Of a DNA stretch of 64,000 nucleotides, positions 3,203 to 24,508 are shown piece after piece. A program made the translations under genes and the position numbers. The first letter of the stretch is position 1, and the number at the start of each line of letters is the position of its first letter. The DNA comes from Streptomyces sp. SUK 48 (GTDB taxonomy: Bacteria > Actinomycetota > Actinomycetes > Streptomycetales > Streptomycetaceae), in assembly GCF_009650765.1 (NCBI RefSeq), contig NZ_CP045740.1, forward strand, positions 2,170,001-2,234,000, written 5' to 3'. The notes under the pieces are model-generated. The model saw only the letters and a program-made list of their open reading frames with translations, was not told the origin of the DNA and searched no databases.

Positions 3203-3305
3203 GCCGTCGTACCGGGGTGATCCACTACGGGAGCGGCGCCGGTCACAGCCGCAAGGGGAGAAAACTCACAAGCGATTGCTCTGCACTCTTTTGAGCGCCC
3301 TGGCC

Positions 3306-3311: not shown

Positions 3312-3318
3312 CCGAGCC

Positions 3319-5118: not shown

Positions 5119-7292
<2,174 letters not shown>

Positions 7293-7299
7293 GGCCGCG

Positions 7300-8310: not shown

Positions 8311-8321
8311 GTCCTGGTCGG

Positions 8322-8409
8322 CGGAGTCTTGGTCGGCCGGTCGAGGTCGGCCGGGTCCAGGTCAGCGGAGTTTTGGTCGGCCGGTCGAGGTCGGCCGGGT
8401 CCTGGTCAG
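8322..8409. repeat. Imperfect 44-bp tandem duplication
   Basis: Two adjacent copies, 8322-8365 and 8366-8409, differ at only a few bases. Each contains the core GGTCGGCCGGTCGAGG. They fill the space between convergent meaB and the GAF-ANTAR gene and slightly overlap the end of the latter. No hairpin typical of a terminator was seen here. Confidence 0.7.
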
Positions 8410-9095
8410 CCGAGGCCGCCGCGCTCGCAGATCCGCCGGGCCACGTCCCGGAGCTTGATGTTCTTGTCCTGGGAGTAGCGGCGCAGCACGTCGAACGCCT
8501 GGTCCTCGGTGAGGTCGTGGCTGCCCATGAGGATGCCCATGGCCTCGCCGATGACGTGCCGGGTGGCGACGGCCTGTTCCAGCTGGGCGTGGGTGCGGGC
8601 GCTGGAGAAGGCGACGGCGGCGTGCGAGGCGAGCAGCCAGCCGGCCGTCTCGCTGGCGTCGCCGAAGGCACCCGGGCTGCGGGAGTAGATGTTCAGCGCG
8701 CCGAGGTCCTCCTCCTCGGTGTAGAGCAGGAAGCCCATCATGCTGCCGAGGCCCAGCTCGCGGCCCGCCCTCACATAGCGGGGCCAGCCCGCGTGCTCCT
8801 CGCTGAAATCGGTGATCCGGAACACCCGCTCGTCGCTCTCGGGGCGGGCGACGTCGTAGCACGGTCCTTCCTGGAGCCGCTCCTGCGCCTGGTCGCTGTC
8901 GATCACCACCTGGTCGGTCGGCGCGAGGGTGCGGACGCCCTTGGCGTGCAGGAGGAGAATCCCGGCCGCGTCACAGCCCGGGACGAGCTCGGTGGCGGAC
9001 CGGGTGATCCGCTCCAGGGTGTCGGTCACCGTCTCCTGCGCCAGCAGTTCCCGCGCCAGTGCGGCCATCCGTTCGGCGAACACGCGCCAATCCAT
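8406..9095 (-). CDS. GAF-ANTAR regulatory protein
   Basis: The 229-residue protein has an N-terminal GAF domain (about residues 20-160; a small-ligand or redox sensor fold) and a C-terminal ANTAR domain (about residues 165-225, ending HVIGEAMGILMGSHDLTEDQAFDVLRRYSQ... in two stretches). ANTAR domains bind paired RNA hairpins near terminators and act as antiterminators. This domain pair is abundant in actinobacteria, and no specific target can be named from the window. It is a single gene convergent with meaB. The start ATG at 9095 is preceded by a GGGAGG-like ribosome site. Confidence 0.88.
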   Translation of the reverse strand: MDWRVFAERMAALARELLAQETVTDTLERITRSATELVPGCDAAGILLLHAKGVRTLAPTDQVVIDSDQAQERLQEGPCYDVARPESDERVFRITDFSEEHAGWPRYVRAGRELGLGSMMGFLLYTEEEDLGALNIYSRSPGAFGDASETAGWLLASHAAVAFSSARTHAQLEQAVATRHVIGEAMGILMGSHDLTEDQAFDVLRRYSQDKNIKLRDVARRICERGGLG

Positions 9096-9194
9096 CGTTC
9101 TCCTCCCTGCCTGCCTTCACCAGACCGACCACCTGCCCTGTTTCCACCATCGCATCCCTGCCCGACCCCGGCCGACCGGGACACACGAGGGCGC

Positions 9195-9255
9195 GGGGGC
9201 GGGGGCGGAGGGGCCGCGGGGGCGGGGGCGGAAGGGCCGGGGCGGGAGGGCGGGG
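9195..9255 (+). repeat. G-tract cluster, potential G-quadruplex
   Basis: At least eight runs of 3-5 G lie within 61 bases, separated mostly by one to four bases. The tract is built from two near-identical units sharing GCGGGGGCGGGGGCGGA. The G-rich strand is the template strand for the GAF-ANTAR gene. Confidence 0.6.
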
Positions 9256-9390
9256 ACCCACCCGGGAAGGCGAGGCCGGCGGGTGCGCAAGAGTCGATCC
9301 GCACCGCTCCGGAGGGGCCCGTCGGGTGGCCGAGGGTCGGGCCGCGCGGGCACAGGGGAGCGAGCCCGGCCGGTCACCGAGGACCCGGGG

Positions 9391-9422
9391 GCGCGGGGCT
9401 CCGCGGAGCGAGGGCCCCGCGC
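9391..9422 (-). terminator. Hairpin terminator of the five-gene operon
   Basis: Arms GCGCGGGGC (9391-9399) and GCCCCGCGC (9414-9422) pair perfectly, 6 bases beyond the stop of the last operon gene. The loop contains a small palindrome, CTCCGCGGAG. There is no U-tract. Confidence 0.55.
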
Positions 9423-9428
9423 GGCCCG

Positions 9429-11873
9429 TCAGTTCTCCTGTTCCGGGAGGACCAGGCGGAAGGCCGCCCCCGTCAGGGCGCGGTTGTCGGGGTCGAGGAT
9501 CTCGATGTCGGCGGAGACGTCGTCCGTGGCCCGGGACCGGAGGAAGCGGCGGACCCGGTGCAGGCCCCGGCCCCGGCCCTCGCCCCGGGTGGTCCAGGTG
9601 GGCCCGAAGATCCGCGCGGGCCGTGACCGGGCCCGCTCCGGCAGGCCGGGGCCGCTGTCCCGCAGCACGACCAGCACCTCGGGGCTCTCCCGCTCCACCA
9701 GGATCTGGAGCACCCCGTCCTGCCCGGCGAGGGCCTCCGCGGCGTTGTCCATCACCTCGTAGAGCACCACGCGCAGCTCGGGCTCGGGGACCGCGACCCG
9801 CAGTCCGGGCGGGCAGCGCACATCCAGTCCCACATGCGGGTGCGCCTCCTCGAACTCGGGCCCCAAGGAGCCGAGCAGCGGGCCCAGTTCGGTCTCGGCC
9901 GCCGCAACCCGCCGGAGGTCTTCCAGGGACAGCTCAAGTTCGATCTCCTCGCCGAACTCGTCCAAGGCGGAGGGGCTTTCCCGCAGCCGGGGATACACCG
10001 GCAGGGTCGCGTAACGGTTGAGGCGCCATGCCCGCGGGCCGTCGCCCCGTCCCTCCCGCTCCAGGGCGAGCCGGCCGAGCAGCACGGTGAGCTGCTGCTC
10101 GGCCTCGGCCCGCAGCGCTCGTACGACACCGCCGGGCGGCACCCGCAGCTCGCCGTCGCCGTCCGGCACCGGGGTCAGCAGACCGCGGCGCACCAGCTCG
10201 TCGACGGCGCCGGACACCCGCGCCCTGACCCCGGGCCCCGCGCCGCACGCCTCCGCCATGTCCGCCGCCTCGTCCCGGCCGACCTGCCCGCCCACCGGGT
10301 CGCTCGCCGCCAGCGCCGCCCACCACGCCGCCTCCGCCGCGGGCCCGCCGCAGCGGGCCGTCAGCTCCTCGCGCAAGGCATGGGTCAGCGCCTCGTCCCG
10401 CTGCCAGCCGCCCTCGGCCGCCGCCCAGCGCCGTACGGGGCCGGCGTCGTCGGCGGGGTCCTGCGCGTACCGCAGCATCACCAGCAGCAGATGCGGGTCC
10501 ATGCCGGTGCAGTGCTCCATGGCCTGCACGGCCGCCGGTCCGCAGCCCAGCGACAGCCGGCTGATCCAGCGCAGGGTGCGCCAGGCCACGTCGGCCTCGC
10601 CGCCCAGGATCCGGCCGAGCTCGGCACCGCTGTGCCCGGCGAGCGCCGAGACCGGCCACTGCGGGGCGAGAACGCCGAGCAGCGCCGCGGCCCGGTCCGG
10701 TACCTCGGCGAGCACCACCAGGCGCAGCAGGTCCCGCAGGGTCAGTACCGCGGTGGGCCGCCGGTCGGTGTAGCCGGACGGCTCCACCTGGGGGCCGACC
10801 GCCACACAGGGCCGCTCGTCCTCGCCGGTGTCCGGCAGGCCGACCGCGCCGGGCCCGCCGACGTACAGGTCGACGCGTCCGGTGGGGTGCAGCCGGGAGA
10901 GGGCGGGGCCGCCGAACAGGCCGTCCAGGAAGGTGAGATGGAAGGCGCTGTGCTCGACCGGCGTGGCCGTCAGCGGTCCGGGCGGCACCCCGAGGAAGCA
11001 GCACAGGGCATGGGCGAACCCGGCGGCCGCCGCGGCCGACAGATCGTGCTCCAGCCTGCCGTACGCCGCCAGCAGTTCCTGTCCCTCGCGGTCGGCCGCC
11101 CGCCAGTCGACGAACGCCGGAGGCCGCAGCCGTCCGGGGTTGAGGTGATAGTCGAGGAACTGGCGCGGGTCCCACTCCGCCTTCCAGGCCGGCGGCGCGG
11201 TCATGCCCTCGGGGATCGGGGCGCCGGGCGGCTCGCGGTTCAACAGGGCGGTGGCGGCGACGAGTTCACCGGCGTCGAGCAGAGCCCTGACCCGGGCGAC
11301 CGCCTGCCCCCGCGCACCCGCGCGCTCCGTCGGGGGCAGCCGGTCGGCCAGTGCGCGGGCGGCGTCCGCGATGCGCCGTTCGAGATCGTCCGCCAGCGCG
11401 TCCAGCCGGGCCACGACCCCGGGCCGCCCCGAGCGTGCCCGCTCCACCAGCGCCTCGGTCCCGGCGGGGTCGTCCTCCCACGCCACGCCCGCGCCCTGGG
11501 CCCGCCGGGCGAGGGCGCCGAGCCGCTGCCGTACCAGCTCCGCGGCCCTCACCCGCAGGCTCTCCAGCTGCCGGGCCAGCCGCTCGGCGTCGTACGGGCG
11601 CAGGTCAGCGCAGCCGGCGAGCAGATACTCGGCGGCGTCGAACTCGCCCCGCTCCAGCAGCTCCTCGCAGACGAGGCCCACGGGGCGGCCGCCGAGCCGG
11701 GCGAGGACCGCGCGGGCCAGCTCGACGGCGTCCTCGGGGCCGTACGACGACTGCCCGCGCGTCAGCAGGGCCAGCACCTCGGGGTAGCGGAACCGGCCGG
11801 GCCAGGTGCCGAGCAGATGCCGGGCGCCGTCCAGATGGTTCCGCACCTGGCTGTCGTGGCTCGGCGCGCTCAT
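9429..11873 (-). CDS. GHKL-type ATPase protein, last gene of the five-gene operon
   Basis: The 814-residue protein has a C-terminal histidine-kinase-like ATPase (GHKL) domain. It shows an N-box EVMDNAAEAL near residue 706, a G1 box DSGPGLP near 742 and a G2-like GRGRGLHRVRRFL near 770. No phospho-acceptor histidine domain, membrane segment or sensor was recognised. The first 680 residues are helical and unassigned, with one Gly-rich stretch, VDLYVGGPGAVGLPDTG. This looks like a GHKL module on a large helical scaffold, as in MORC-, Hsp90- or conflict-system ATPases, rather than a two-component kinase. The ATG at 11873 overlaps the upstream stop by 4 bases (ATGA), so the genes are coupled. Function is unknown. 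Confidence 0.72.
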   Translation of the reverse strand: MSAPSHDSQVRNHLDGARHLLGTWPGRFRYPEVLALLTRGQSSYGPEDAVELARAVLARLGGRPVGLVCEELLERGEFDAAEYLLAGCADLRPYDAERLARQLESLRVRAAELVRQRLGALARRAQGAGVAWEDDPAGTEALVERARSGRPGVVARLDALADDLERRIADAARALADRLPPTERAGARGQAVARVRALLDAGELVAATALLNREPPGAPIPEGMTAPPAWKAEWDPRQFLDYHLNPGRLRPPAFVDWRAADREGQELLAAYGRLEHDLSAAAAAGFAHALCCFLGVPPGPLTATPVEHSAFHLTFLDGLFGGPALSRLHPTGRVDLYVGGPGAVGLPDTGEDERPCVAVGPQVEPSGYTDRRPTAVLTLRDLLRLVVLAEVPDRAAALLGVLAPQWPVSALAGHSGAELGRILGGEADVAWRTLRWISRLSLGCGPAAVQAMEHCTGMDPHLLLVMLRYAQDPADDAGPVRRWAAAEGGWQRDEALTHALREELTARCGGPAAEAAWWAALAASDPVGGQVGRDEAADMAEACGAGPGVRARVSGAVDELVRRGLLTPVPDGDGELRVPPGGVVRALRAEAEQQLTVLLGRLALEREGRGDGPRAWRLNRYATLPVYPRLRESPSALDEFGEEIELELSLEDLRRVAAAETELGPLLGSLGPEFEEAHPHVGLDVRCPPGLRVAVPEPELRVVLYEVMDNAAEALAGQDGVLQILVERESPEVLVVLRDSGPGLPERARSRPARIFGPTWTTRGEGRGRGLHRVRRFLRSRATDDVSADIEILDPDNRALTGAAFRLVLPEQEN

Positions 11874-14800
11874 GCGTTCTCCTTCCCGGCCTTCGGCAGC
11901 GCGGACAGCGCCTCCAGCAGGGCCTTGGCCGGATGGCAGGCCGGTTCGCCCAACTCGTCCGCCTCCTTGAGCAGTTGGTGCCAGGAGCCGTCCAGGTGCA
12001 GGGCGAACCGCCGTTGGGCGGCGGTCAGCCGGGGTGCGGGCGAACCCTGGAGCTGCTCCTCGGAGCCGGCGACGAGGGACCTGGCCTCGGCGACGAACTC
12101 CGCGATGTTGCGGGCGTAGGCGAAGTGGTTGCTCCACTCGATCTTGCGCAGGCCGAGGTCCGCGGACATCCGGTCGAGCTGGGTGCGGATGTCGTGCTCG
12201 CCCTGCGGCAGCTCCTCGGCCACCGGGACCCAGCGGTCGGCCGGCCGGGGGTCGCGGGCCATCTCGCGGACCCGGGCGAGGATGCCGCCCGGCCGGAACA
12301 GGGCGCGGTGCAGCTTCTGGCCGTCCGTGAAGCTGAAGTGGTTCTTGGCCTGCTCGAAGGCGGCCACCCCGGCGGCGAGCCCGGCCCAGCGCTCGTCGGA
12401 GCGCGCCGAGCGCTCCTGCCCCGCCGCCCATTCGTCGACGTCCTGCAAGGGCAGCGGGGCCGGTGCCGCCTCGAAGCAGGCGCGGGCGGCACGGGCCAGT
12501 TCCAGCCAGGCCGTCGGCAGCCCCTCGGCGGGCGCCCCCTCCGTCAGGTGCCGGCAGGCGAGCCGGCCCGTGTCGCCGCCGTGCAGCAGCATCTCCGCGA
12601 CGGCGCCCGCGAGCGCGACGGTGCGCTGCTCGGGCGGGGCCGACTCCAGCGCGAGGGCGCTGAAGAAGAGCTGCTCACCGAACGGACCGTGCTCCAACGG
12701 CAGGGCGACGGCGGCCAGTTCGACAGACAGCGCGCCGGGGCCCCCGCCGAGCAGCGGGGTGAGCAGGTACGCCTCCATGAACGCCCCGCGCCGCCAGGCG
12801 TCCTCCAGAAGCCAGCGGGACCATTTGCCGGCGTCGGGACGGTGGGTGTCAGTGTCGGGGCGGTAGGCATCGGTTTCAGGGCAGTGGGTGTCGGCACCCC
12901 GCTCCCCCGTGCCGACCGGGCCTTCCGCGTCGCCCCGGCCCATCAACAACGCCGCCGCGTACCGCCGCAGCTCCCCCGCGCCCCGGCCCGCCCGCTCCCG
13001 CTGGGCCAGTGCCGTCCACGGGTCGTCGTCCAGCGGGATGGCGGCGAACACCCCGGCCGTCGGGTGGTACTCCGGCCCCTCGGCCCCGCTGTCCCCTGCG
13101 TCCCCGAACCACTCCGGGATTCCCAGCTCCCGCGCGAAGTCCACGGTGAACGCGGTCCCCACGATGTGCAGCCCGACCTGCGCCACCGCGCCCTGCCCCG
13201 GATGCGTCGCCCCGTGCCCGACCGGGTGACGGCTGCCCACCACCAGCTCGTGATCGCTGAGCACCGCCCGCGCCCTGGCCTTGCCGACACGCAGGGTGCC
13301 GTCCGTCTTGAGGGCCTTGAGCAGGGCGTCGTACGCGGTGGCCGTGCGCCGGCCGCCGCTGAGCGAGGGATGCTGGAGGTGCACGACACCGCCGGCCTCC
13401 CGCAGCCGGCGCAGCCGCAGGGCGAGGATCTCGTCGCAGGCTTCGTGCTCGGCGCGGTCGTCGGTGACGGCGAGCCGTTCGCCCGCGCTCGCGAGGAGGC
13501 GGCCGGCCACCTCGGTGTAGGCGCCGTCCCATACGGCGCGCACCACCGGGTCGGTGCCCCGGTACACGTCGTTCACCGCGTCCACGAGTTCGCGCAGCAC
13601 CCGGCCCCAGGCCGCCGCCCAGCCGACCTGGAAGCCCACCGGGTCCTCGTCCCACCCCTCGGGCAGTTCGGGGGCTTCCCACCGCCACCAGCGCGCGGGC
13701 TCGGCCGGGAGTCCGCGTCCGGTGCGGCCGAAGTCGTCGGGCGCGATGGCGATGCTCCGCGCGGTCTCCCAGTAGGTGTAGACCCTGCGCACCCAGCTGA
13801 GCAGGTCGGCCACGCACAGCGGGGGCGTGTCGGCGTCCTCGGAGGGTTCCACGAGCACCCCGGCGCCGGTCTCGGCCGACAGGAAGCCGCGGGAGCCGAC
13901 GTAGGCGGCGCGGTTGTCGCAGATCAGCAGCGAGGCCGCGCTGGAGCTGCTGCGCTTCTCCAGCAGCACCTTGCCCAGGTAGCGGGCCTTCAGGTCGAAC
14001 AGGGCCGTCTCGACCCGGGGTTCGAGTCTGGCCGTGGGGTGGTCGCCCCACAGCAGGACGAGGGTGGCGCCCCGCTTGAGAGCCTCTTCCAGGCCGGGCA
14101 GCAGCGGGTTGAGGGCGTCGTAGGCGATGGTGGGCGCGGCCAGCACCAGTTGGTGTTCGGCGCGGTCGATCAGGTCGCCGACGACATAGCCGACCCCGGC
14201 CCCGGGCGCCACCCGGTGGGCCCCGCAACGGGCCCTGCGCGCCTCGGAGATCTGCTCCCGCAGCTGGTCCGCCCTGGACTTCAGCGCGTGGTGCCGGCCG
14301 GGCAGGTCGGGCAGTTCGGGGGCGTCGTCCAGGCCCTCGGCGAGCTGCTCCAGATCGCGGATCAGCTCCTTGAGGGTGTCGGGCCGTACGACCTCCGGGA
14401 CCTGGCGGTTCAGCAGCTTCTTGACGAAGGTGCTCTCGGACCGGGTGCGCAGCAGATGGGTGATGTGTGCCTGGAAGAGCTGGGCGCCCCTGCGTCCCCA
14501 GCCGGGCGGCGCCTCGACGGGCACCGCGGCGATCTGGCCGCTGCCGGGGTCCCGCTTCACCACGACCTCGACCGTGCTCCAGCGGACCGCCTCGGGCGGG
14601 CTGAGCACGGGGTTGGTGAACGACACGTTCAGCACCCGGCGGCGCACGCCCCGGTCGCGGCGCTCCTCGGCGACGGCCCGGCGGACGGCGCGCAGCAGTT
14701 CGGTCTGGGGCAGGTCCTCCGCGAAGACGCCCCGGGCCATCGGCATCTCCAGGGCGCCCAGCGGCACCCGGACGCTTCCGTCCCGGTACGGCAGGATCGT

Positions 14801-15145
14801 CTCGGTCACCGGGTCGAACAGGAACTTGCGTGAATCCACGCTGGTGGCGACGGCCTGCGCGCCGTCGCCGTCGCCGAGCACCGCCTCGGCCGCCGGGGTG
14901 CCCTCCAGGGTGTGCGAGGTGAAGTCGACGGCGAGGAAGCCCCGGCTCCACAGGGCGTGCACCACGTCCAGCATCAGCCGGCGGGGCAGCGAGAAGAGGT
15001 CGCCGAGGGAGTCGACGGTGGTGCGGCCGCCGGCGACCGCCGCGAGCACCAGTTCCTCCAGGGTCGAGGCGCCCGTCTCCGAACCGAGTTCCACCCTCAG
15101 GGTGATCACCCGGCAGGGCAGGGCGACCAGGGTCGTCTCACTCAC
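11870..15145 (-). CDS. PLD-fold protein with degenerate HKD motifs
   Basis: The protein has 1091 residues. The N-terminus (to about residue 90) resembles a winged helix. Two phospholipase-D-like half-sites are recognisable: SLLICDNRAAYVGSRGFL near residue 405 and RAVLSDHELVVGSRHP near 632. In both, the conserved Asp and Gly-Ser remain, but the catalytic His and Lys of HxKxxxxD appear replaced (Ala/Ser in the first, Arg/Arg in the second). The domain is therefore probably catalytically inactive or uses other residues. A helical C-terminal domain of about 350 residues is unassigned. Start GTG 15145 overlaps the helicase stop by 8 bases. By position it corresponds to the PLD partner (MkoB) of Mokosh type I systems, though it is much longer than a simple nuclease. 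Confidence 0.65.
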   Translation of the reverse strand: MSETTLVALPCRVITLRVELGSETGASTLEELVLAAVAGGRTTVDSLGDLFSLPRRLMLDVVHALWSRGFLAVDFTSHTLEGTPAAEAVLGDGDGAQAVATSVDSRKFLFDPVTETILPYRDGSVRVPLGALEMPMARGVFAEDLPQTELLRAVRRAVAEERRDRGVRRRVLNVSFTNPVLSPPEAVRWSTVEVVVKRDPGSGQIAAVPVEAPPGWGRRGAQLFQAHITHLLRTRSESTFVKKLLNRQVPEVVRPDTLKELIRDLEQLAEGLDDAPELPDLPGRHHALKSRADQLREQISEARRARCGAHRVAPGAGVGYVVGDLIDRAEHQLVLAAPTIAYDALNPLLPGLEEALKRGATLVLLWGDHPTARLEPRVETALFDLKARYLGKVLLEKRSSSSAASLLICDNRAAYVGSRGFLSAETGAGVLVEPSEDADTPPLCVADLLSWVRRVYTYWETARSIAIAPDDFGRTGRGLPAEPARWWRWEAPELPEGWDEDPVGFQVGWAAAWGRVLRELVDAVNDVYRGTDPVVRAVWDGAYTEVAGRLLASAGERLAVTDDRAEHEACDEILALRLRRLREAGGVVHLQHPSLSGGRRTATAYDALLKALKTDGTLRVGKARARAVLSDHELVVGSRHPVGHGATHPGQGAVAQVGLHIVGTAFTVDFARELGIPEWFGDAGDSGAEGPEYHPTAGVFAAIPLDDDPWTALAQRERAGRGAGELRRYAAALLMGRGDAEGPVGTGERGADTHCPETDAYRPDTDTHRPDAGKWSRWLLEDAWRRGAFMEAYLLTPLLGGGPGALSVELAAVALPLEHGPFGEQLFFSALALESAPPEQRTVALAGAVAEMLLHGGDTGRLACRHLTEGAPAEGLPTAWLELARAARACFEAAPAPLPLQDVDEWAAGQERSARSDERWAGLAAGVAAFEQAKNHFSFTDGQKLHRALFRPGGILARVREMARDPRPADRWVPVAEELPQGEHDIRTQLDRMSADLGLRKIEWSNHFAYARNIAEFVAEARSLVAGSEEQLQGSPAPRLTAAQRRFALHLDGSWHQLLKEADELGEPACHPAKALLEALSALPKAGKENA

Positions 15146-18100
15146 CGGCGTCCTCCGCTGCCATGGCTCCGGCGGCGCCCTCGGGCGTCTCGTCCCGCGG
15201 CACGGGTACGACCGCCCGCCGGCCGCCGGTGATCTCCTCGGTGACCGCGTCCACGATCACCCCGCTGTCCCGGAACGCCTCGATGACCGTCCCCCAGTCC
15301 GCTCCGCCGTACTGCTCGAAATGCGCCAGGTCCCCGACGACGACGAGCAGTTGGCGCGCCCGGGACAGCATCACGTTGACCACCTCGGGCTGCGCGGTGT
15401 GCCCGATGTTGCCCCGGGCGCCCTCGCCGCGCACGGCGCTGCGCACCAGGGAGACGATCACCACCTCGGCCTCGCCGCCCTGGAAGGAGTGCACGGTGTG
15501 CACCCGCCCCCGAAGCCCCTTGGCCTCCAGGATGCCCGCCTGTTTGCGGTAGGGGGTGATGACGACGAGTGCGCCGGGGTCCGTGCGGTGGGCGAGGCCG
15601 AGCCGGGCCACGAGGTTGTCGATCAGTTCCGCCTCGCCCTCGTTGCCCCAGTAGGGGGTGTCGCGGCAGCCGTCGTGGCGCCCGGTGTCGAGCCACACCA
15701 GCGGCGCGTTCGTCACGTACGGCGGCTCGGTGCGGCCGTGGATCTGGTCGATGAACGGGTCCGAGGTCAGGAAGGTGCCGGTCGGGCCCGCGTCGGGGTA
15801 GAAGGCCCGGGCGAAGGGCGTGGCGATGTCGGGGTGCATGCGGAACTGGGTGACCAGGACGTCGACCGGGCGTCGCGCGGAGGCGGTGCGCCGCGGGTCG
15901 TGCCCGTCGAAGAAGCGCCGGAACATGTGCAGATGGTCCAGATAGGCGTCCTGGTTGGCGTGGTGGGCCTGGACGCGGTCGTGTTCGTGGGCGGCGAGCC
16001 CTTCGAGGAAGTTCCGCATGTCCTGGGCGCGGTGCGGGCCGAGCTGCTGGTAGTCGCCGACCAGTGTCCAGCGCACGCCCCGGACGAGTGGCATGACGAC
16101 CTCGGTGGGCCATGCCTTGGCGGCCTCCTCGATGATCACCCAGTCGAACATGTCGCTCGGGTCGCGGACCTCGTCGGACAGGGTGCCCGCGATGGAGCAG
16201 GTGGCGAAGACGATGTCGGCACCGGACTTCACCCGCTCGATCAGCTCCAGCTGGGTGTCGCCCGCGAGCTCGGCCCACCGCTTCATCAGCCGCTTCTCGT
16301 CCTCGTCGCGCGCCCCCTCGCAGCCCCGCTCCACGCGGCGGACGATGTGCGCCACCAGGTCCCCGACGATGTTCTCCGCCGTGAACTTCCGCACCGAATC
16401 GGGGGCTTCCCCCCGCTCCCTGGTGCGGGACAGCTCCCGCAGGGCGAGCAGGGAGCGGTCCTCGATGCGTGGCCGCAGCTCCTTGACGATCTTCTCGGCG
16501 AGCTGGTCGAGCGCGTCGTTCGACTGGGCGCTCACCAGGACCCGGGCTCCGTGCTCCATCTCCAGGAAGTCCCGCAGAGCCTTGGCCACGACGGTGCTCT
16601 TGCCGGTGCCGGGCGGCCCCTGGAGGGCGTAGAAGGGGTGGAAGCGCAGCATGTTGGAGACGATGGCCTGGCCCTTGCCGCGCAGCTCGCTCTGGTCGCG
16701 GCTGGTGACCCCCCTGCTGCGCAGTTCGATGGCCTCCGGCGCGTCCAGGATGCGCACCAGGCCCGGCTTGTGCGCGAGGGAGTCCAGCCCACGCGCCTCG
16801 CGCCGCAGTTGGGTCTCCGCGCCGCGGTCCTCGTCGGGCCGGAGCCAGCCGCGCTCGGGCACCTGACGGCCGCCGAGCGGCTGGATCTGCACCGAGTCCG
16901 CGTCCAGCCGTACCTTCAGCCGGGCCTCCACGGCCCGGCCGCCGAAGTAGGGGTCGGTGGGGTGGCCGTCGCGGCCGGTGCGGTCCTCCACCAGGGTGAC
17001 CCGCGCCCATTCGTTCTCGGTGAGCAGCTGCCGGGCGAAGTCGCCGAGGGGCGGCCTGCGCCGGGGCTGGGCGTAGGAGGTGAGCAGCGGGTCGCCGTGC
17101 AGCCAGCGGCGGTCGCGCTCGTGGTCCTGGGTGAGCACGATCGCGTCACCCTCCTCCGAGCGCACCCTGACATAGGGGTACTGGCGGGCGCGCAGGGCGA
17201 CACCCTGGTACTCCAGCATGAACCGGTACGACCGCAGCAGTTTCTGCGAGCCCTGGTGGTCGACGGCGCGTTCGGTGACGACCGCCTTGGTCAGCTCCTC
17301 CCAGGAGGGCCGCGTCTCGCCGCCCTTGTCCAGGGTCTGGCCGACCCAGAAGGGCACGAGGTCCACCTTGCCGATGCTGCGCCGGGGCCAGGCGGTCAGC
17401 AGATCGTCCGCGTACCGCTTGTCCAGCAGGTACTTGATGACCAACGTGTCCTTGTGGATCTTCTTGCGGCGGCCGGAGATCGCCTCGTCGTAGTGGAACG
17501 CGCAGAACCACACGGCCTGGTTGCCGATGAGCGCCCACTCCGCCTCGGCCTGGGACTGCGGGGAGTCGCCGTGCACGAAGCCCTGGGCGCCGCTGGGGCT
17601 GTGCACCAGCTGGGCCTGGCGCAGCTCGTCCTCCAGGAAGGTCTGGAGTTCCCGGCAGCCCTCGGGGGTGTCGGGGCGGTGGTCGGTCCAGCCCCGGCTC
17701 TCGTACACCGTCTGCACGGACTTCTCCGGCATGAACGCCAGCAGCCGCGGCTTCTCGTCGTGTTGCTCCACCGGGGCGAAGCCGAGGGTGATCTCCGTCC
17801 AGTGGCGTTGCAGCGCGGCCGCCGCGTCGAAGGAGGAGATACGGCCGCTGGGGGACGGGTCGAGCATGTCCCCCAGCGCCTCGCGGAGCCGGCGCGGGAC
17901 CCTCGTGGCCCCGGTCAGCGCCCGGCGCATCGCGGTGTGCAGCGCGGCCAGGGTCTCGGGCAGCCGGTCCTCGGGCGACCGCTCGACGGCCGCGCACTCT
18001 CCGGGCAGCAGCTCGGTGACGGCGCCGAGGAACAACTCCCAGCCGAGCACGCCGAGTCCGAACACATCGGTGCTGCCGTGGTCGAGCCTGCGCACCCGCA

Positions 18101-18851
18101 CCCGGCCGAGGAGCGAGGGGTGTGTCTCGGGCGCGAGGTAGGCGAGATGGCGGGCCCGGGGGACGCCGGCGGGCGGGGTGAGGAACAACTCCCGTACGTC
18201 CTGCGAGCGATGGTCGTCCGGGCCCGCGACGTGGTGCAGCAGGTTCTTGAGCAGGGCGCTGAGTTCGAACCGGGTCAGGGCGAGGGCCGCGCGCTCCGGC
18301 CGGCTCGGCTCCATGGCCAGCCTGATCGCGCCCAGGGTCAGATTGCGGTGCACGATCCGGGTGCCGTGCAGCTGGCTGAGGGCGTCCACCAGCAGGCTGA
18401 ACTGCTCGAACGCCACGACGGGGTGCCCGCGGACCCACTCCTGTACGTCGCCCCAGTCCTGCTCCGCCAGGGGTCCCCCGACCTTGCGGGTCATGATGAA
18501 GGCCACGCGGTTCGTCTTGTCGAACCGCCCGTCCACGATCTCCGGCAGCGCCGGGTGCCCGAGCATCCGCAGCCGCAGCAGATTCCGGACCTCGTGGTCC
18601 CACAACTCGCCCGCGAGATCGTCCACTCCGTGGAAGAGCGACACCTCCCGGGGCGGCTCCTCCCCGTGCGGTGCCCGCAGCACGAACCGGGTCAGCCATC
18701 CGTCGATGACATGCTCGACCCCGCCGTCGAGCTCCCAGCCGCCGCCCTCCGGCGCGTAGACCGCCCGCCCGCCGGTGAAGAGGTCCTTGATCTGGAACTC
18801 CACGTCCAGCTCCGCCCACGGCTCGTCCATCGTGGTCCCCGGCTCATCCAT
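15138..18851 (-). CDS. Pseudokinase-COG1112-type helicase fusion, MkoA-like
   Basis: This 1237-residue protein joins a protein-kinase-like domain (about residues 20-370) to an Upf1/DNA2-type superfamily 1 helicase (about 700-1180). Helicase motifs look intact: GPPGTGKST near 744, VIIEEAAKA near 907 (Glu in place of the usual Walker B Asp), GDYQQLGP near 935, QFRMHP near 1000, VHSFQGGEAE near 1120 and NVMLSRAR near 1165. In the kinase part the catalytic loop reads HRNLTLGAIRL instead of HRDLKPxN, the DFG position reads TRFEL, and no VAIK lysine is evident. It is therefore predicted to be a pseudokinase. Kinase-like plus COG1112 helicase next to a PLD protein is the Mokosh type I architecture. 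The start overlaps the upstream stop by 8 bases; ATG 18830 is an alternative. Confidence 0.75.
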   Translation of the reverse strand: MDEPGTTMDEPWAELDVEFQIKDLFTGGRAVYAPEGGGWELDGGVEHVIDGWLTRFVLRAPHGEEPPREVSLFHGVDDLAGELWDHEVRNLLRLRMLGHPALPEIVDGRFDKTNRVAFIMTRKVGGPLAEQDWGDVQEWVRGHPVVAFEQFSLLVDALSQLHGTRIVHRNLTLGAIRLAMEPSRPERAALALTRFELSALLKNLLHHVAGPDDHRSQDVRELFLTPPAGVPRARHLAYLAPETHPSLLGRVRVRRLDHGSTDVFGLGVLGWELFLGAVTELLPGECAAVERSPEDRLPETLAALHTAMRRALTGATRVPRRLREALGDMLDPSPSGRISSFDAAAALQRHWTEITLGFAPVEQHDEKPRLLAFMPEKSVQTVYESRGWTDHRPDTPEGCRELQTFLEDELRQAQLVHSPSGAQGFVHGDSPQSQAEAEWALIGNQAVWFCAFHYDEAISGRRKKIHKDTLVIKYLLDKRYADDLLTAWPRRSIGKVDLVPFWVGQTLDKGGETRPSWEELTKAVVTERAVDHQGSQKLLRSYRFMLEYQGVALRARQYPYVRVRSEEGDAIVLTQDHERDRRWLHGDPLLTSYAQPRRRPPLGDFARQLLTENEWARVTLVEDRTGRDGHPTDPYFGGRAVEARLKVRLDADSVQIQPLGGRQVPERGWLRPDEDRGAETQLRREARGLDSLAHKPGLVRILDAPEAIELRSRGVTSRDQSELRGKGQAIVSNMLRFHPFYALQGPPGTGKSTVVAKALRDFLEMEHGARVLVSAQSNDALDQLAEKIVKELRPRIEDRSLLALRELSRTRERGEAPDSVRKFTAENIVGDLVAHIVRRVERGCEGARDEDEKRLMKRWAELAGDTQLELIERVKSGADIVFATCSIAGTLSDEVRDPSDMFDWVIIEEAAKAWPTEVVMPLVRGVRWTLVGDYQQLGPHRAQDMRNFLEGLAAHEHDRVQAHHANQDAYLDHLHMFRRFFDGHDPRRTASARRPVDVLVTQFRMHPDIATPFARAFYPDAGPTGTFLTSDPFIDQIHGRTEPPYVTNAPLVWLDTGRHDGCRDTPYWGNEGEAELIDNLVARLGLAHRTDPGALVVITPYRKQAGILEAKGLRGRVHTVHSFQGGEAEVVIVSLVRSAVRGEGARGNIGHTAQPEVVNVMLSRARQLLVVVGDLAHFEQYGGADWGTVIEAFRDSGVIVDAVTEEITGGRRAVVPVPRDETPEGAAGAMAAEDAGE

Positions 18852-21800
18852 CGTGGCCCCCCGTTTCGTCGTCCCTGGGACTCGAGCTCCCGGTTTCGTG
18901 GTCCCCGGGACCGGCGCTCCCGGCTTCGTCGTCCCCGGGACCGGAGTCCTCGGCCGCGCCGGTGTCCCGCTGCCGGGGCTCCGCCGCCGTCACGGACAGG
19001 ACGACCACGCCGTCCCTGAAGGCCACCGCGAGCCGCCCGCCGGACAGGGCCGACAGCCCCAGGACCGGGGAGCCGAGGCGGATGCGGTGGCCGGGGACGA
19101 GGGGCCGGGCGGCGTCCGGGCCGGTGGTCCAGAGCTGGACCTCGCCGTCGTCATCGGCGCTCGCCCGCATCCCCCGGTACGGCGCCCCGCGCAGCCGCAC
19201 CAGGCCGCTGACGTCGCCCTGGTGCGCGCGCGTCACGGCCTCGGGCCGGCGGCCTTCGGTGCCGTCCCACCCCGGGCGGCCGGCCGCCCGGACCGCCTCC
19301 CCGGTCAACTCCCGTCCGTCGGAAGCCCGCAGGACCCGTACGGCCCGCTCCGTACGCCCCGACGCCCGCACCTCATGACACAGCGCCAACGCCTCGGCCC
19401 TCTCCTCGGTGACGTACCGGTGCATCCCGATGATCCGGCCGAAGGGCACCCCGGCGCCCGGCGCCGCGCCGGTCAGGTGGGCCGAGGGGTCCCAGAAGTG
19501 GATGGCCGGACCGCGCTCCGCCGCGGCCGCCACCACCCGCCCTCCGTCAGGTCCCGCCAGCACCGCGAGCGCGCGGACCCCGGCTCCCGTTCCCCCGCCG
19601 ACCGGCCGGCGGGGCTGGTCCGCCGCCAGGGCCCACAGGCCCCGGGGGTCTCCCCACAGGACCGTCCAGCCGGAGTCCCGCGCCCGCCACCCGGCGAGGG
19701 CCGTGGCGCCCCCCGCCCTGAACGGCGGCCCCGGTACGCTCACTCGCCCGACCGCCGCATGCCCTTCGGACGACGCGTCCCACCACCACAGCGAACCGTC
19801 GTCACAGGCCACCGCCAGCTCCGCCGGCGCCATCGCGGTGAGCCCCGCGAGCTGCCGCCGCAAACTCATGGTGTGCAGCAGCCGCGGCGCCTCCCCGGCC
19901 ACCTCCCACAGCGTGAGATCCCCGGCCCGCTCGGCCACCGCCAGCCACCGCTCCCCGTCCGGCCCGGTGACCGCCGCCAGGCCCACCACCTCGCTGCCGG
20001 GCGCGCCCGGCGCGGGCGACAACCGCACCCCGCCCGGCTTCCCGTCCGGGCCCGGGTCCAGCAGTGCCACCCAGCCCGTCTCCCCGGCCACGGCGAACCG
20101 CCCGTCGGGCAGCGCCACCAGCCGCCACACCGGCTCGGGCGCCTCCACGACCCGCTCATCGGCATACGCAGCGCTCCCCGCAGCGGGGCGCCAGACGCGC
20201 AGGGTACGGTCCTCATGCGCCGATACGACCAGGCCGGGCCCAGCCCCACCCGGGGCAGCGCCTGTCGCCCCCGAACCTCCGTCGGCCGTGCCCGGGACAC
20301 CGCTCGCCGCCACCGCCGTGACCGGGCTGTCGGAGCCGCGCGTCAGCAGCACCGGGGCGTGGGTGCGCCAGGGTTCCCACAGCGTCACCGAGCCGTCGCG
20401 GGCGCCACTCACCAGCCACGGCCGGCCGGGGCACGCGGCGACGGCGGTCACCATCTGCCCGGCGTCGAGCTGGAGATGCGGTGGCGTACGACGCACCGCG
20501 CCCCAGCACACCTGCCACGCCCCGCCGTCCCCGGCCGGGTGCGGCACACCGCGGGCGCGCAGCCCGCCGAGCTGGCGCAGCCCGGGCCGGTCGGCGGCGG
20601 CCGAGCGCTCGATCAGATGGGCCGAGGCGACCGTGCCCAGGATCTCGACGGGCAGGTCGGTCGGCACGGTACCGCCACCGCTGCGCCCCGGGGCGAGCGC
20701 GAGCGCGCACAGCGCGGCAACGCGGAGCTGGTCCACCACACTTCGCCGTGCGGCGAGTCGCCGCCACCCGGGGGCGCCGCAGTCGGCCGCGTACTCGGCG
20801 AGCCGGCTCTCCAGGTGCGGGCTCGGCGGCCGGCCCCCGGCGATCTGGTCGGCGGCCAGCTCCAGCAGCGCGCCGAGCAGAGCGAGCCGCTGCTCACCGG
20901 TGACGTCGGCGGCCAGCCGCTCGGCGTAGGTGCGGTGGGCCAGCCGGTAGACACTGCGCCGGTCCTCCCCGTCCAGCAGCACATAGGCGGCGGCCTTGCC
21001 CAGGAACTCCGTCAGCGTCCGTTCGTCCGGCGCGCACCCGCTCTCTCCCGCCAGCGCGCCCGCCGCCCGCAGCCAGATCCCGTCCGCGCGCGGCAGTCCC
21101 CGGCCGTGGCCGAGCGCGAGCGCCCGCAGGAACGGCAGCGCCATCGGCAGCTCCGCCGCGATCCGCGCCACGGCCGCCCCGAACAGCCCGGAACGGTCCT
21201 TGTCCAGCAGCTTCAGGAGCGCCGGCCGCGCGCCGGGGTCCCGCGACAGCACCCCTGGATTTTCCTCGATCTCCTGCACGAGCAGCGCCACCTGGAGGAA
21301 CTGCCAGGCCCCCTCGCGCACATGCCGCTCGACGGCCGCCCGCACCGTCCCGGCCACCGCTTCCGCCCCCACGGGATCGGTCCCCGCCGACGGCGCGTCC
21401 GCCCCGTCCCGTGGCGCGTCGACGCCCTCTCCCCGTGCCCTGTCCACGAGTGCCCTGCGCACTCCGGCGGCGGCGTAGGCACCGGCGGCGACGGGGTCCG
21501 GCAGGAGTTCCAGCACCCGCGCTCCGCCGGTGTGCGAGCCGAGCACCGTCGGCAGATCGATCCGGGCGGCCTCGGGGTCCCCGTCGTCGCCGGGTGCCCG
21601 GCGGGTGCCGATGATCAGCGAGACCTGGGGATGCTCCGTCGCCGCGCGGAGCAACTGGGCCGTCGGCACGGGGTCCCGCGCCTCGTCGAGCGCGTCGGCG
21701 ATCACGAGAATCCGTTCGCCCGGCTCCGGGGAATCCGGTCCCCACTCCTCTGCGGGCGTCCGGCTCGCCCTCACCCCTTCGAGCCGTTCGCGGACCTCCG

Positions 21801-23004
21801 CCACGGTGCTCCCGGTCAGCCGCAGCACGGCCCCGACCCGGGCCCCCGCCGCCCTGAGCCGCCGCAACGCCTCCCCGAGGAACGCGGACTTGCCGACGCC
21901 GGGCGCCCCGGGCACGATCAGCACCCGCTCCGGCCCGGGCCCGGTGCCCCACCGCACCACCTCGGCCAACTCCGCCTGGCGCCCGGTGAAATGCGGTACG
22001 ACCTCCAGGAATCCGGCGCGCTCCCGCTCCTGCGGCGATTCGACCGACCGGGACCCGGTCACCGGCACGGTGTCGAACTCCCGCTGCCTGCGCCGCTGTT
22101 CGGCCACCGTGGTGACCCCCGGCAACGGCACCCGGTCCCGCACCAGCAGCTTCAGCTCCGCACAGGACTCCCCGACGAACTCGCAGTAGTGGTCCGCCTG
22201 GATGAAGAACCGGCGCAGCTCATGGAGTTCGAGGACGTCATGGCTGGTGAGCGCGTCCAGACAGTCCTCCAGCGTCTCGCGGAACGTCCCGAGGTACGCC
22301 TGCGCCGCTTCCTTCCCCGTCGCGATCAGCAGAATGGAGTGGGGTGCGTCGCCCGTCGCGGCCGAACGATCGAACCGTTCACGCACCGCCTTCGCGAAGT
22401 CCGACGACTTGCACGCCTCGATCACCACCATCGCCCAATGCCCGTCCGCCCGGAGTCGGTTGTCCGACTCGGCGTAGAGATGATGGGCGAACAGGTCGGG
22501 CGTCAGCTGCGCGCAGTCCCCGCGCTCCGCCGAGCCGGGCACGAGCAGGGCCGGCCCCATGGCGCCCCGGCGGCCGTGCCCCAGCCAGACCAGGGCCGAG
22601 GGCCGTTCCTTCTCGCGGCGCTCGCCGGGGTCGCCGTACCTCCCCGACCAGCGCGCGAGTTCGTCGTCGGCCGCGCCGAGGGAGTCGACGGTCCCGGACC
22701 CGGTGGACGGCCGTACCGGCTGCCCCCCGATCCTGCGCAGTACGTCGAGCACGGCGGCCGCCTCCGCCGCCGTGTCCGCCTTCGGATACCCGGCGACATG
22801 CCCGACGGGCACCACCAGCGCGTCGAACGCCTCCGCCACCGTCCCGTCCCGGACCGCCGCGCCCTGCCGCGGCACGACGGGCGGCACGGGTGGCGCGGGC
22901 GGCCCCGGCGACGCGGGCCCGGCGGCCCCTGCGCCGGTCACGGTTCCGTCCCCGTCCCCCACGGCCGCCGGCTCGCGCCCCGCCGCCACCAGTTCCGTCG
23001 CCAT
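18844..23004 (-). CDS. Caspase-like protease / STAND ATPase / WD40 protein
   Basis: The 1386-residue, three-part protein begins with a caspase-like peptidase (about residues 45-270). It has a candidate catalytic His in LVWLGHGRRG (near 142) and Cys in VVIEACKSSD (near 197). A STAND NTPase follows, with P-loop GAPGVGKSAFL near 366 and Walker B LVIADALDEA near 431, then a helical region. From about residue 650 come WD40-type repeats (for example GARDGSVTLWEP, SAHEDRTLRVWRP, ADDDGEVQLWTT). STAND proteins with beta-propellers typically sense a ligand, oligomerise and release an N-terminal effector, here a cysteine protease. The C-terminal tail is Asp/Gly/Ser rich. ATG 23004 lies 4 bases after the lipase stop. 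Disease-resistance-like (NLR-like) logic is inferred from architecture only. Confidence 0.82.
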   Translation of the reverse strand: MATELVAAGREPAAVGDGDGTVTGAGAAGPASPGPPAPPVPPVVPRQGAAVRDGTVAEAFDALVVPVGHVAGYPKADTAAEAAAVLDVLRRIGGQPVRPSTGSGTVDSLGAADDELARWSGRYGDPGERREKERPSALVWLGHGRRGAMGPALLVPGSAERGDCAQLTPDLFAHHLYAESDNRLRADGHWAMVVIEACKSSDFAKAVRERFDRSAATGDAPHSILLIATGKEAAQAYLGTFRETLEDCLDALTSHDVLELHELRRFFIQADHYCEFVGESCAELKLLVRDRVPLPGVTTVAEQRRRQREFDTVPVTGSRSVESPQERERAGFLEVVPHFTGRQAELAEVVRWGTGPGPERVLIVPGAPGVGKSAFLGEALRRLRAAGARVGAVLRLTGSTVAEVRERLEGVRASRTPAEEWGPDSPEPGERILVIADALDEARDPVPTAQLLRAATEHPQVSLIIGTRRAPGDDGDPEAARIDLPTVLGSHTGGARVLELLPDPVAAGAYAAAGVRRALVDRARGEGVDAPRDGADAPSAGTDPVGAEAVAGTVRAAVERHVREGAWQFLQVALLVQEIEENPGVLSRDPGARPALLKLLDKDRSGLFGAAVARIAAELPMALPFLRALALGHGRGLPRADGIWLRAAGALAGESGCAPDERTLTEFLGKAAAYVLLDGEDRRSVYRLAHRTYAERLAADVTGEQRLALLGALLELAADQIAGGRPPSPHLESRLAEYAADCGAPGWRRLAARRSVVDQLRVAALCALALAPGRSGGGTVPTDLPVEILGTVASAHLIERSAAADRPGLRQLGGLRARGVPHPAGDGGAWQVCWGAVRRTPPHLQLDAGQMVTAVAACPGRPWLVSGARDGSVTLWEPWRTHAPVLLTRGSDSPVTAVAASGVPGTADGGSGATGAAPGGAGPGLVVSAHEDRTLRVWRPAAGSAAYADERVVEAPEPVWRLVALPDGRFAVAGETGWVALLDPGPDGKPGGVRLSPAPGAPGSEVVGLAAVTGPDGERWLAVAERAGDLTLWEVAGEAPRLLHTMSLRRQLAGLTAMAPAELAVACDDGSLWWWDASSEGHAAVGRVSVPGPPFRAGGATALAGWRARDSGWTVLWGDPRGLWALAADQPRRPVGGGTGAGVRALAVLAGPDGGRVVAAAAERGPAIHFWDPSAHLTGAAPGAGVPFGRIIGMHRYVTEERAEALALCHEVRASGRTERAVRVLRASDGRELTGEAVRAAGRPGWDGTEGRRPEAVTRAHQGDVSGLVRLRGAPYRGMRASADDDGEVQLWTTGPDAARPLVPGHRIRLGSPVLGLSALSGGRLAVAFRDGVVVLSVTAAEPRQRDTGAAEDSGPGDDEAGSAGPGDHETGSSSPRDDETGGHDG

Positions 23005-23008
23005 GGCG

Positions 23009-24508
23009 TCAGCCGTCGTGCACCATGTCGAGGACCGGGACGAGGCGCCGCTTCGGCTCCTCGCCACCGGTCACCTCCACCTCGTACATCCCCGGGCGGT
23101 CGGGCGTGCAGGAGGCCGCCAGCACACCGGGCCGGCCCGGCACCGGCCGCAGGGCGGGGGTCAGCAGTTCGTCCAGGCCGTCGACCCCGCGCACCCTGCA
23201 CTCCAGGTCGGCGCCGCGGGCGACCCCGTCGACCTCGATGGCGAAGGGCTCGCCCAGGGCGGCCCACTCCGGCGCGCACAGCTCGAACTCCGCCTCGTCC
23301 CCGAGCATGGCGCCCCGCTCCTCCGGGTGCCGCAGCCCGTGCATCAGGCCGGAGGCCATGTCGAGGACACTGCGGGTACGGATGAGGGCGCCGTGCTCGT
23401 GGTAGAAGTGCACCGGCCTTTCGGTGCCCGGCAGTTGGGCCGCGTACTGGTACACCGTGCCGTCGCCGGTCCGTGGGTCGCGCTGGGGCCGGCCCTCGGC
23501 GTCCGGGAGCAGCCGGCCGTCGTGGTAGCGCTTGAAGAGGCAGCGGTCGAACAGCGCGACGCCGTCGGCGAGCCGGTAACTGGTCCAGGTGCGCTGGCCC
23601 ATGCCGACGACCGTCACATGCTCGGGCAGGGTGGTCTCCGCCCGGCTGGTACGCCAGTCCACGGCCGCCTTCGCCAGCTCGCGCCGCCCGCCGAGCGCCA
23701 CGATGTCCTCGACGCCCGGCACCCGCATGTCGCCGTCCGCCTCGAAGGCGCGGTAGCCGGGCAGCAGGTCGTACAGCCCAGGCATGGTCGCGGCGACCTG
23801 CCGCAGGACCGCCGGCGGCACGGGGAACGGCAGGCCCTTGCCGGCGTTGAGCATCAGCACGGCCTTGACCGAGCCGTTGAAGGGGGTGCCGACGGTCATC
23901 ACCGCCCGGATGTCCCCGCGCAGGGCGGGGTCCAGGTGCAGGGCCTCGCGGGTGAGCAGGCCGCCCATCGAGTGGGCCACGACGACCAGCCGGGCGGGAC
24001 CCGCCTCGGGGTTGGCCTCCAGGTACCCGCGATGCCCGGGGTGGGCGCGCCAGGCGTCCAGGTGGCGGCGGGCCGCGGCGGCGAGGAGCGCGCCGTTGTG
24101 CTCGACGGACAGCCGCCAGTCGTAGGGGAAGGGAAGGAGCGCGGCGGGGTCCACCACACTGCGCCGCATCTCCGCGACCATGGCGGTGTAGGGGTGGGCG
24201 GAGCCGAGACCCGGCAGCGGTTCGAAGCTTTCGAGGAGCCCGGTCACCTCGACGCGTCCGGTGCGGCCCTCGCGTTCGTCCTCGGTCACCGCGAGCTGCC
24301 GGAGCCGGTCGGTGTGGGCCCGCGCGGTGTAGGTGAGGAGCTTTCCGACTCCCCATAACTTCCGGCCGGTCCCGGCCTCCCTCAGCTCGCTGCCCATGAT
24401 GCCGGGCACGATCACCACGGCGTCGTGCAGTCTTCGTCCCGGATTGCTTCTGCGCATGAGCTTCGCCTCGAACACTTCGACGGCCCGCATCCCCTGGACC
24501 GATGCCAT
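23009..24508 (-). CDS. LCAT-like alpha/beta-hydrolase (lipase/acyltransferase)
   Basis: The protein is about 499 residues. It carries an oxyanion-type VIVPGIMGSEL motif near residue 30, then a lid-like region, the nucleophile elbow VVAHSMGGLL near 180 (GxSxG-like, AHSMGG) and a late HFYHEHGALI that could supply the catalytic His. This order matches lecithin:cholesterol-acyltransferase-related phospholipases and acyltransferases. No signal peptide or membrane segment is visible, so it probably acts in the cytoplasm, possibly on the inner leaflet. It is the first gene of the five-gene operon. ATG 24508 is preferred because a TAGCCT -10 element lies 14 bases before it. GTG 24532 and ATG 24490 are other in-frame starts. 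Confidence 0.78.
   Translation of the reverse strand: MASVQGMRAVEVFEAKLMRRSNPGRRLHDAVVIVPGIMGSELREAGTGRKLWGVGKLLTYTARAHTDRLRQLAVTEDEREGRTGRVEVTGLLESFEPLPGLGSAHPYTAMVAEMRRSVVDPAALLPFPYDWRLSVEHNGALLAAAARRHLDAWRAHPGHRGYLEANPEAGPARLVVVAHSMGGLLTREALHLDPALRGDIRAVMTVGTPFNGSVKAVLMLNAGKGLPFPVPPAVLRQVAATMPGLYDLLPGYRAFEADGDMRVPGVEDIVALGGRRELAKAAVDWRTSRAETTLPEHVTVVGMGQRTWTSYRLADGVALFDRCLFKRYHDGRLLPDAEGRPQRDPRTGDGTVYQYAAQLPGTERPVHFYHEHGALIRTRSVLDMASGLMHGLRHPEERGAMLGDEAEFELCAPEWAALGEPFAIEVDGVARGADLECRVRGVDGLDELLTPALRPVPGRPGVLAASCTPDRPGMYEVEVTGGEEPKRRLVPVLDMVHDG

Follow-up and report, generated by a model that had tools for sequence, protein, structure and literature searches.

A conserved Streptomyces operon with a caspase-lipase pair and motif-depleted Mokosh relatives suggests an immune system that exchanged its weapon

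A conserved five-gene operon was found in the window, the whole stretch of 64,000 nucleotides from Streptomyces sp. SUK 48 that was analysed. It combines a caspase-lipase pair with relatives of the proteins of Mokosh, a known antiviral helicase system, that have lost their kinase and PLD motifs, which suggests an immune system that has exchanged its weapon. An effector-swapped Mokosh immune operon is the best explanation of the observations and on balance a probable one: a defence system loses its catalytic motifs and has a complete protease-effector pair at hand in its own operon. Predicted catalytic residues are present in the helicase, the caspase, the lipase and the GHKL protein. Candidate catalytic positions include Lys751 of the helicase, Lys372 of the STAND NTPase and Asn710 of the GHKL protein.

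The sequence-only reading had described five large, coupled genes on the minus strand. Coordinates (Table 1) and spacings of +4, -8, -8 and -4 bases in the order LIP, CASP, MkoA, MkoB, GHKL agreed with this description, and its domain calls (lipase, caspase, WD40, MkoA/MkoB and GHKL) were all upheld. The single likely promoter it had named was not recovered, as a consensus scan gave no promoter of the sigma-70 type. Of the terminator it had placed behind the GHKL gene, the hairpin is present, but it has no T-tract and was absent from the terminator scan; 14 of 200 shuffled sequences folded equally well or better (z = -1.64). Chance open reading frames were rejected, every frame having profile or homologue support and a dN/dS below 1. 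The longest GHKL frame (1000 aa, 9429-12431) was considered over-long; the ATG at 11873 yields the shorter protein of Table 1 and an ATGA overlap with MkoB.

Table 1. Features of the five-gene operon in window coordinates
Feature	Positions	Strand	Description
LIP, lipase	23009..24508	minus	LCAT/group XV phospholipase-like a/b hydrolase, 499 aa
CASP, caspase-STAND NTPase-WD40 protein	18844..23004	minus	1386 aa
Caspase domain of CASP	22135..22842	minus	aa 55-290, predicted His143/Cys198 dyad
MkoA	15138..18851	minus	Pseudokinase fused to SF1-type (AAA_11/AAA_12) helicase, 1237 aa
MkoB	11870..15145	minus	PLD-like, both HKD motifs lost, 1091 aa
GHKL	9429..11873	minus	N-terminal part of ~650 aa and C-terminal histidine-kinase-type ATP-binding domain, 814 aa
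GC-rich hairpin after GHKL	9391..9422	minus	Possible terminator without T-tract

Co-conservation of the five genes had been set beforehand as one point on which the reading could fail, and it held: the order is kept in 13 distinct loci. It was present in 5 of 199 genomes of the genus, where two to seven first-look candidates were scored per genome and distant matches may be missed (the query for CASP was its N-terminal 500 aa), and in 11 of 12 loci from a wider contig database, the twelfth being a 5.2-kb contig. The 8-base overlap of CASP and MkoA recurred in seven of ten tabulated loci. Protein distances of the five proteins were correlated with r = 0.97-0.99 (36 pairs, nine loci), a divergence in step. 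Compared with three relatives, the five genes had a dN/dS of 0.15-0.50 and the pseudokinase region one of 0.14-0.22. Two loci were cut by contig ends (L025, L007), three had broken frames (L028, L030, L032) and in L033 CASP was split. L028 and L030 were excluded from motif, tree and distance work; L032 contributed MkoB to the motif count and the open N-terminus of CASP to one alignment, while L033 entered the motif, tree and spacing comparisons and was left out of the distances. Two complete defence systems, a lipase with a caspase-STAND protein and a degenerate Mokosh pair with GHKL, could also travel together and be co-transcribed with no signalling between them. Each half also occurs alone, lipase with STAND in L008-L010, L012-L021 and L044 and MkoA-MkoB-GHKL in L006, and thus the two halves may work independently; moreover, defence systems often cluster in islands. 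The one order across all thirteen loci, the recurrent overlap and the correlated distances, in which partner exchange was not seen, speak against such independence and make it unlikely.

Profile comparison bore out the proposed kinship to Mokosh. MkoA matched the PADLOC model MkoA (2e-263) and Pfam AAA_11 and AAA_12, MkoB matched PADLOC MkoB (1.1e-148, aa 2-710) and DrmC (7.7e-6), and the PADLOC models of MkoA and MkoB were covered over most of their length. The two genes adjoin with an 8-base overlap, the side-by-side arrangement of Mokosh type I. Motifs were read by their textbook definitions (kinase, HKD, Walker, GHKL), and the terms pseudokinase and degenerate PLD given to the two proteins earlier proved appropriate. 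In MkoA, HRD is changed to HRN and DFG to RFE and the Lys of VAIK is absent, while the helicase Walker A motif GPPGTGKS is kept; in MkoB both HKD motifs are lost, with A403xS405 and R624xR626 in place of HxK, and the C-terminus extends ~350 aa past the end of the PADLOC model. The Ser/Thr kinase catalytic motifs of MkoA, which we take to be a defining feature of Mokosh type I, were intact together with the PLD motifs in eight of ten loci read that hold MkoA and MkoB only. The PLD motif HxKxxxxD was found in these eight loci, in none of 11 MkoB proteins of five-gene loci and in none of 41 database homologues, which, having been collected with this branch's own profile, do not count as independent (one, P0041, matches in part only, and its first motif falls in a gap). 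The ten loci were the newly found ones with MkoB at E <= 1e-37, the weaker matches lying at E >= 2.5e-15 among the matches listed; PADLOC MkoB matched in 115 of the 199 genomes, mostly weakly. Absence of GHKL, caspase and lipase from these ten loci is defined by the lack of a BLASTP match to the reference set at E <= 1e-4. In the MkoA tree a branch with support 100/100 separates the eight motif-complete MkoA from the other 14, and a single group of the five-gene loci had a support of just 69/89. A search of PDB sequences with the MkoB profile gave no match at E <= 0.1.

A PLD-like domain is listed for Mokosh I and II and a NERD domain for type I in the available part of PMC10952713. No NERD domain was detected by Pfam in MkoA or MkoB (E <= 0.001), nor in the proteins of the motif-complete locus L035 (E <= 0.01), thus NERD may not define Mokosh type I. 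Since the kinase motifs are lost here, though intact in eight of the ten loci above, the operon is placed as a derived Mokosh branch. The earlier assignment to Mokosh type I therefore stands in its profile matches and not as an ordinary member; motifs and tree indicate a catalytically altered branch. Strong PADLOC matches to MkoA and MkoB may thus cover proteins without kinase and PLD motifs. In L034 and L043 the motifs of MkoA and MkoB are lost and relatives of the other three genes do not adjoin the pair, and L006 holds MkoA-MkoB-GHKL with lost motifs and neither caspase nor lipase. Motif loss is thus not tied to the caspase-lipase pair, an observation that counts against an effector swap. 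Apparent intermediates persist in one genus, from motif-complete MkoA-MkoB over degenerate MkoA-MkoB and the degenerate pair with GHKL to the five-gene operon, so that effector exchange is directly testable between natural loci.

Full-length matches of the GHKL protein (E <= 2.1e-72) were confined to the five genomes of the genus with the five-gene operon. Its C-terminus has the CA ATP-binding domain of histidine kinases, HATPase_c, as the only Pfam match. As to a dimerisation/phosphoacceptor domain of the HisKA type, the conserved columns, invariant and near-invariant, hold no His directly before the ATPase domain. The N-terminal part is mostly helical; the fold matches listed were taken up by the ATPase domain and none resolved this part.

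The lipase matched Pfam LCAT (6.7e-11) and PGAP1 (2e-6), and its nearest solved relative is Group XV phospholipase A2 (E = 0.0014). Its sequence has the predicted Ser-Asp-His triad of the LCAT/group XV phospholipase family, Ser180 (HSMGG), Asp349 (GDGTV) and His372, invariant in 15 of 15 aligned lipases; the assignment follows by analogy with that family. In CASP, an alignment gave the STAND region with the P-loop GAPGVGKSA and the motif DALDEA, Pfam a WD40 match (4e-10), and a structure model the caspase fold with its His-Cys dyad. The caspase domain of the window's own protein had no match in Pfam or NCBIfam. L012, a stand-alone relative of CASP, matches NCBIfam NF047832 'caspase, EACC1-associated type' at 7.2e-8, below the curated cut-off. 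A gene product with a WD40 match only was rejected on the dyad and the fold. PADLOC models, which presumably include those of Avs, gave no match for this protein at E <= 0.01, thus it was not assigned to AVAST/Avs.

A lipase match was obtained in 31 genomes, and the loci of 21 of them were read (the window included), second matches being left out in some. Of the 16 lipase loci read without Mokosh genes next to them, 14 have a STAND gene related to CASP beside the lipase. Several of these 14 neighbours match CASP weakly and in the STAND region only, with E values up to 6e-4 in L019. A His and a Cys as in caspases were seen in the N-termini of 11; among the remaining ones L018 and L019 had miscalled starts and L009 ended before the Cys. 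One further locus of the 16, L045, has a STAND-lipase fusion in which both parts are clear and a TPR match lies below the cut-off. Paired in loci without Mokosh and fused in L045, lipase and STAND protein look like functional partners. This argues against a caspase that targets MkoA, MkoB or phage or host proteins beside a lipase acting as an independent effector or regulator; this alternative, with which the failure to identify a cleavage site, gating loop or insertion in the lipase agrees, is doubtful. The same failure counts against the effector swap.

The surroundings of the operon differ between lineages, as compared over a few kilobases. The window copy adjoins a gene for a SpoIIE-type phosphatase, another locus adjoins the Wadjet genes JetD/JetC. 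Named homologues were all from filamentous actinomycetes and a phylum genome sample, likewise scored on a few candidates per genome, gave no further genome with the operon. The ANTAR gene had close matches in 6 of 41 relatives, the SpoIIE gene in 3 of 25. Five ANTAR loci that were read held no other gene from the window's neighbourhood, and in six genomes read over ~12 kb downstream of meaB neither the operon nor the ANTAR and SpoIIE genes had a homologue, so that no clean empty site was found. MkoB had no match on plasmids and GHKL none in phages at E <= 1e-10. The origin of the named homologues in filamentous actinomycetes, the phylum sample and the SpoIIE-type neighbour would suit a programmed-death or lipid-remodelling system of Streptomyces development that reuses Mokosh parts and is not antiviral. 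However, the operon is patchy in the genus, its neighbours vary by lineage, one copy lies beside Wadjet genes and its parts match defence profiles; a more uniform pattern would be expected of developmental genes, and this role is quite improbable. The composite defence or programmed-death system first proposed gains support from the order in 13 loci, the correlated distances and the Wadjet neighbour; we infer its function to be antiviral defence.

As an effector-swapped Mokosh operon, the system would operate as follows. MkoA, with pseudokinase and Walker A helicase, and MkoB, a non-catalytic PLD-like protein with its C-terminal extension, may form a Mokosh-derived sensor that responds to foreign nucleic acid or to a disturbance of nucleic-acid processing. 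GHKL would serve as a switch driven by ATP and would probably dock on MkoB, and the signal would activate the STAND NTPase of CASP. The caspase might then act on the co-encoded lipase or lift an inhibition of it, and the lipase would break down membrane lipid, so that the infected hyphal compartment is killed or arrested. A Mokosh branch would thus have lost kinase and PLD activity and gained a GHKL switch and a caspase-activated phospholipase, a death pathway from helicase to caspase to lipase that we propose tentatively as quite possible. No description of such a pathway was present in the titles and abstracts from a literature search.

With Mokosh type I, a helicase-kinase MkoA and a PLD protein MkoB, the operon shares the profile matches of MkoA and MkoB and the helicase Walker A motif; it differs by the lost kinase and PLD motifs, the MkoB extension and three additional genes. 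A caspase paired with a neighbouring a/b-hydrolase gene has a precedent in other conflict systems, VMAP and GAP1-N1 of multicellular bacteria, described in the available part of Kaur et al. 2020 (PMC7159879), whereas the other genes are Mokosh-derived here. MoxR, vWA and GTPase components, as in the MoxR-vWA arrangement of VMAP/iSTAND, were not detected by Pfam in the five proteins. The two-gene EACC1-caspase systems are linked by the match of L012 to NF047832, although CASP itself has no NCBIfam match; in the same part of PMC7159879 the gene before the caspase encodes a single-TM EACC1 protein, here it is a lipase. The accessible text of PMC12799240, in which the word Mokosh is absent, describes unrelated immune systems that recruit protease-pronuclease pairs, as well as a caspase-activated nuclease (Canu). 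These modules and the operon have in common that a protease and its partner enzyme were recruited to defence systems, with a caspase as activating protease, a role that is proposed for the operon. In the operon, however, a lipase takes the place of the partner and the caspase forms one protein with STAND-WD40, and no MBL-fold nuclease was detected by Pfam in the five proteins. The proposed bacterial pathway of helicase, caspase and lipase would run parallel to the signalling from helicase sensors to caspases in animals.

The window positions 9429-24508 are filled by five minus-strand genes spaced, in transcription order, by +4, -8, -8 and -4 bases, which bears out the coupled five-gene operon of the sequence-only reading. 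The GHKL gene was started at the ATG overlapping the MkoB stop codon (ATGA), because full-length homologues measure about 800-870 aa; its longest open reading frame starts further upstream. Elsewhere in the window, a tRNA-Ala predicted by ARAGORN (55693-55792) lies inside a predicted gene (55004-57001) and is probably false.

Genes of the operon in transcription order
Gene	Position	Strand	Protein length
Lipase	23009-24508	-	499 aa
Caspase-STAND-WD40 protein	18844-23004	-	1386 aa
MkoA	15138-18851	-	1237 aa
MkoB	11870-15145	-	1091 aa
GHKL protein	9429-11873	-	814 aa

MkoB matches were present in seven of 199 genomes of the genus, five of which carry the complete set of genes, adjacent and in a single order (the window and L002-L005; L numbers denote loci in other genomes, with local coordinates). 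Full-length GHKL matches (E <= 2.1e-72) occurred in exactly these five of the 199; the next-best, from 3.2e-10, covered mainly the ATPase domain alone. L006 has MkoA, MkoB and a diverged GHKL gene without lipase or caspase; in L007 MkoB is truncated by the contig end, and upstream of MkoA lies no lipase or caspase. GTDB contigs scanned with the MkoB alignment yielded 12 loci, all Streptomyces, 11 with five genes, the twelfth (L025) being a 5.2-kb contig. L023, L029 and L031 duplicate L002, L003 and L005, respectively. Co-conservation, the check set by the sequence-only reading, was found as one order in 13 distinct loci, the window counted in. Frames are broken in L028, L030 and L032, and the caspase gene is split in L033. 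S. griseofuscus DSM 40191, a complete genome, has MkoA in two frames (L030:6316-10008), interrupted just before the helicase Walker A; the other four genes appear full-length. In a phylum-wide sample the window's genome was the sole match at E <= 1e-8 (1 of 396). Database homologues numbered 41 for MkoB and 39 for GHKL; the named ones belong to Streptomyces, Kitasatospora, Lentzea and Amycolatopsis. Comparing the two sets by longest contig, 18 lengths recur in both.

The proposed Mokosh type I architecture held for the PADLOC profiles (MkoA 2e-263, MkoB 1.1e-148) and failed for the kinase and PLD motifs, as pseudokinase and degenerate PLD had rightly been recognized. Kinase motifs were lost in all ten five-gene MkoA examined (HRN and RFE in the window), PLD motifs in all eleven MkoB (A403xS405 and R624xR626 in the window); L006 likewise lost both, and L007 the kinase motifs. 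HxKxxxxD was found in none of the 41 database MkoB homologues, a set gathered with a profile of this altered branch. The PADLOC MkoB model matched 115 of the 199 genus genomes, mostly weakly, and ten further loci at E <= 1e-37 (L034-L043) were read for neighbours and motifs. MkoA adjoins MkoB in all ten, and BLASTP comparison with GHKL, caspase-STAND and lipase found no relatives within the stretch examined. Eight retain VAVK-like, HRDxKPxN and DFG kinase motifs together with MkoB HxKxxxxD; both sets are gone in L034 (8987-14265) and L043 (5549-11007), motif-lost pairs without a recognisable partner of these kinds. Walker A was kept in 22 of 22 MkoA. The MkoA tree, which carries a long-branch warning, has a branch with 100/100 support between the eight motif-complete loci and 14 others, among which L034 and L043 diverged first after midpoint rooting; the five-gene loci formed one group with modest support (69/89).

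The lipase family is commoner than MkoB (31 of 199 genus genomes). At 14 of 16 lipase loci read without adjacent Mokosh, a STAND gene related to the caspase-STAND gene stood beside the lipase, several of these matches spanning the STAND region only, and caspase-like His and Cys were visible in 11 of the 14 N-termini. In L045 the two are fused; L011 showed neither STAND neighbour nor fusion. The caspase-lipase pair is a module in its own right. The L045 protein (3081-7484, 1467 aa) contains a STAND NTPase (AAA_16) and an LCAT-type lipase, between which lies a weak TPR match; it is a naturally occurring fusion of two partners that have a gene each elsewhere. A second, divergently oriented family of lipase-STAND pairs (L008-L010, L013-L017) has a different caspase-like N-terminus, with TGHG/SSHG and a Cys after Asn-x.

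Most likely, to judge from family chemistry, MkoA-MkoB would act as sensor and the lipase as killer. The most likely order of the signal would run from MkoA-MkoB over GHKL as switch to the STAND protein as relay, whose caspase would then act, and finally to the lipase. The strongest counter-evidence is that the motifs are also lost in L034 and L043, where none of these partners was seen, and in L006, where GHKL is the sole partner. Because these three show no caspase-lipase pair, the Mokosh enzyme loss preceded, or happened without, that pair. Alternatively, two systems might merely travel together; against this speak the constant gene order and the in-step divergence, with the protein distances of the five genes, taken pair by pair over 9 loci (36 pairs), correlating at 0.97-0.99.

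Across the five genes, dN/dS was 0.15-0.50 (window versus L002, L022 and L024). In the same comparisons, the pseudokinase region (0.14-0.22) was under much the same constraint as the helicase (0.16-0.26), thus it is retained rather than decaying. The window, L002, L022 and L030 lie at the same chromosomal location. The remaining compared loci had no flanking gene in common at E <= 1e-20 over the few kilobases examined, and the block therefore seems to travel as one unit. Among nine flanking proteins compared with PADLOC, two matched, Wadjet JetD and JetC directly downstream of the operon in S. omiyaensis (L026:16307-21681); one L024 protein matched helix-turn-helix profiles only, and six had no match. 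The stretch 3' of the conserved meaB (window 7300-9429; L051-L056) differs among six genomes read, and by this comparison the region downstream of meaB may be an insertion-prone site.

The combination of MkoA-MkoB, caspase-lipase and GHKL was not found in the titles and abstracts searched, a partial coverage with subscription journals mostly outside. On that coverage, the operon is an undescribed Mokosh variant, joined to an effector pair of known kind. It differs from Mokosh in that MkoA and MkoB match the profiles but have lost the kinase and PLD motifs. In VMAP systems, according to Kaur et al. 2020 (PMC7159879), the caspase-superfamily domain always has an a/b-hydrolase gene as neighbour; here a caspase-STAND gene stands beside a lipase. 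PMC12799240 describes partner pronucleases activated by proteases in Hachiman and AVAST, repeated acquisition of protease-pronuclease pairs, and a caspase-nuclease system guarding E. coli against phage T4; in those systems the protease partner is a nuclease or pronuclease, here it is a lipase.
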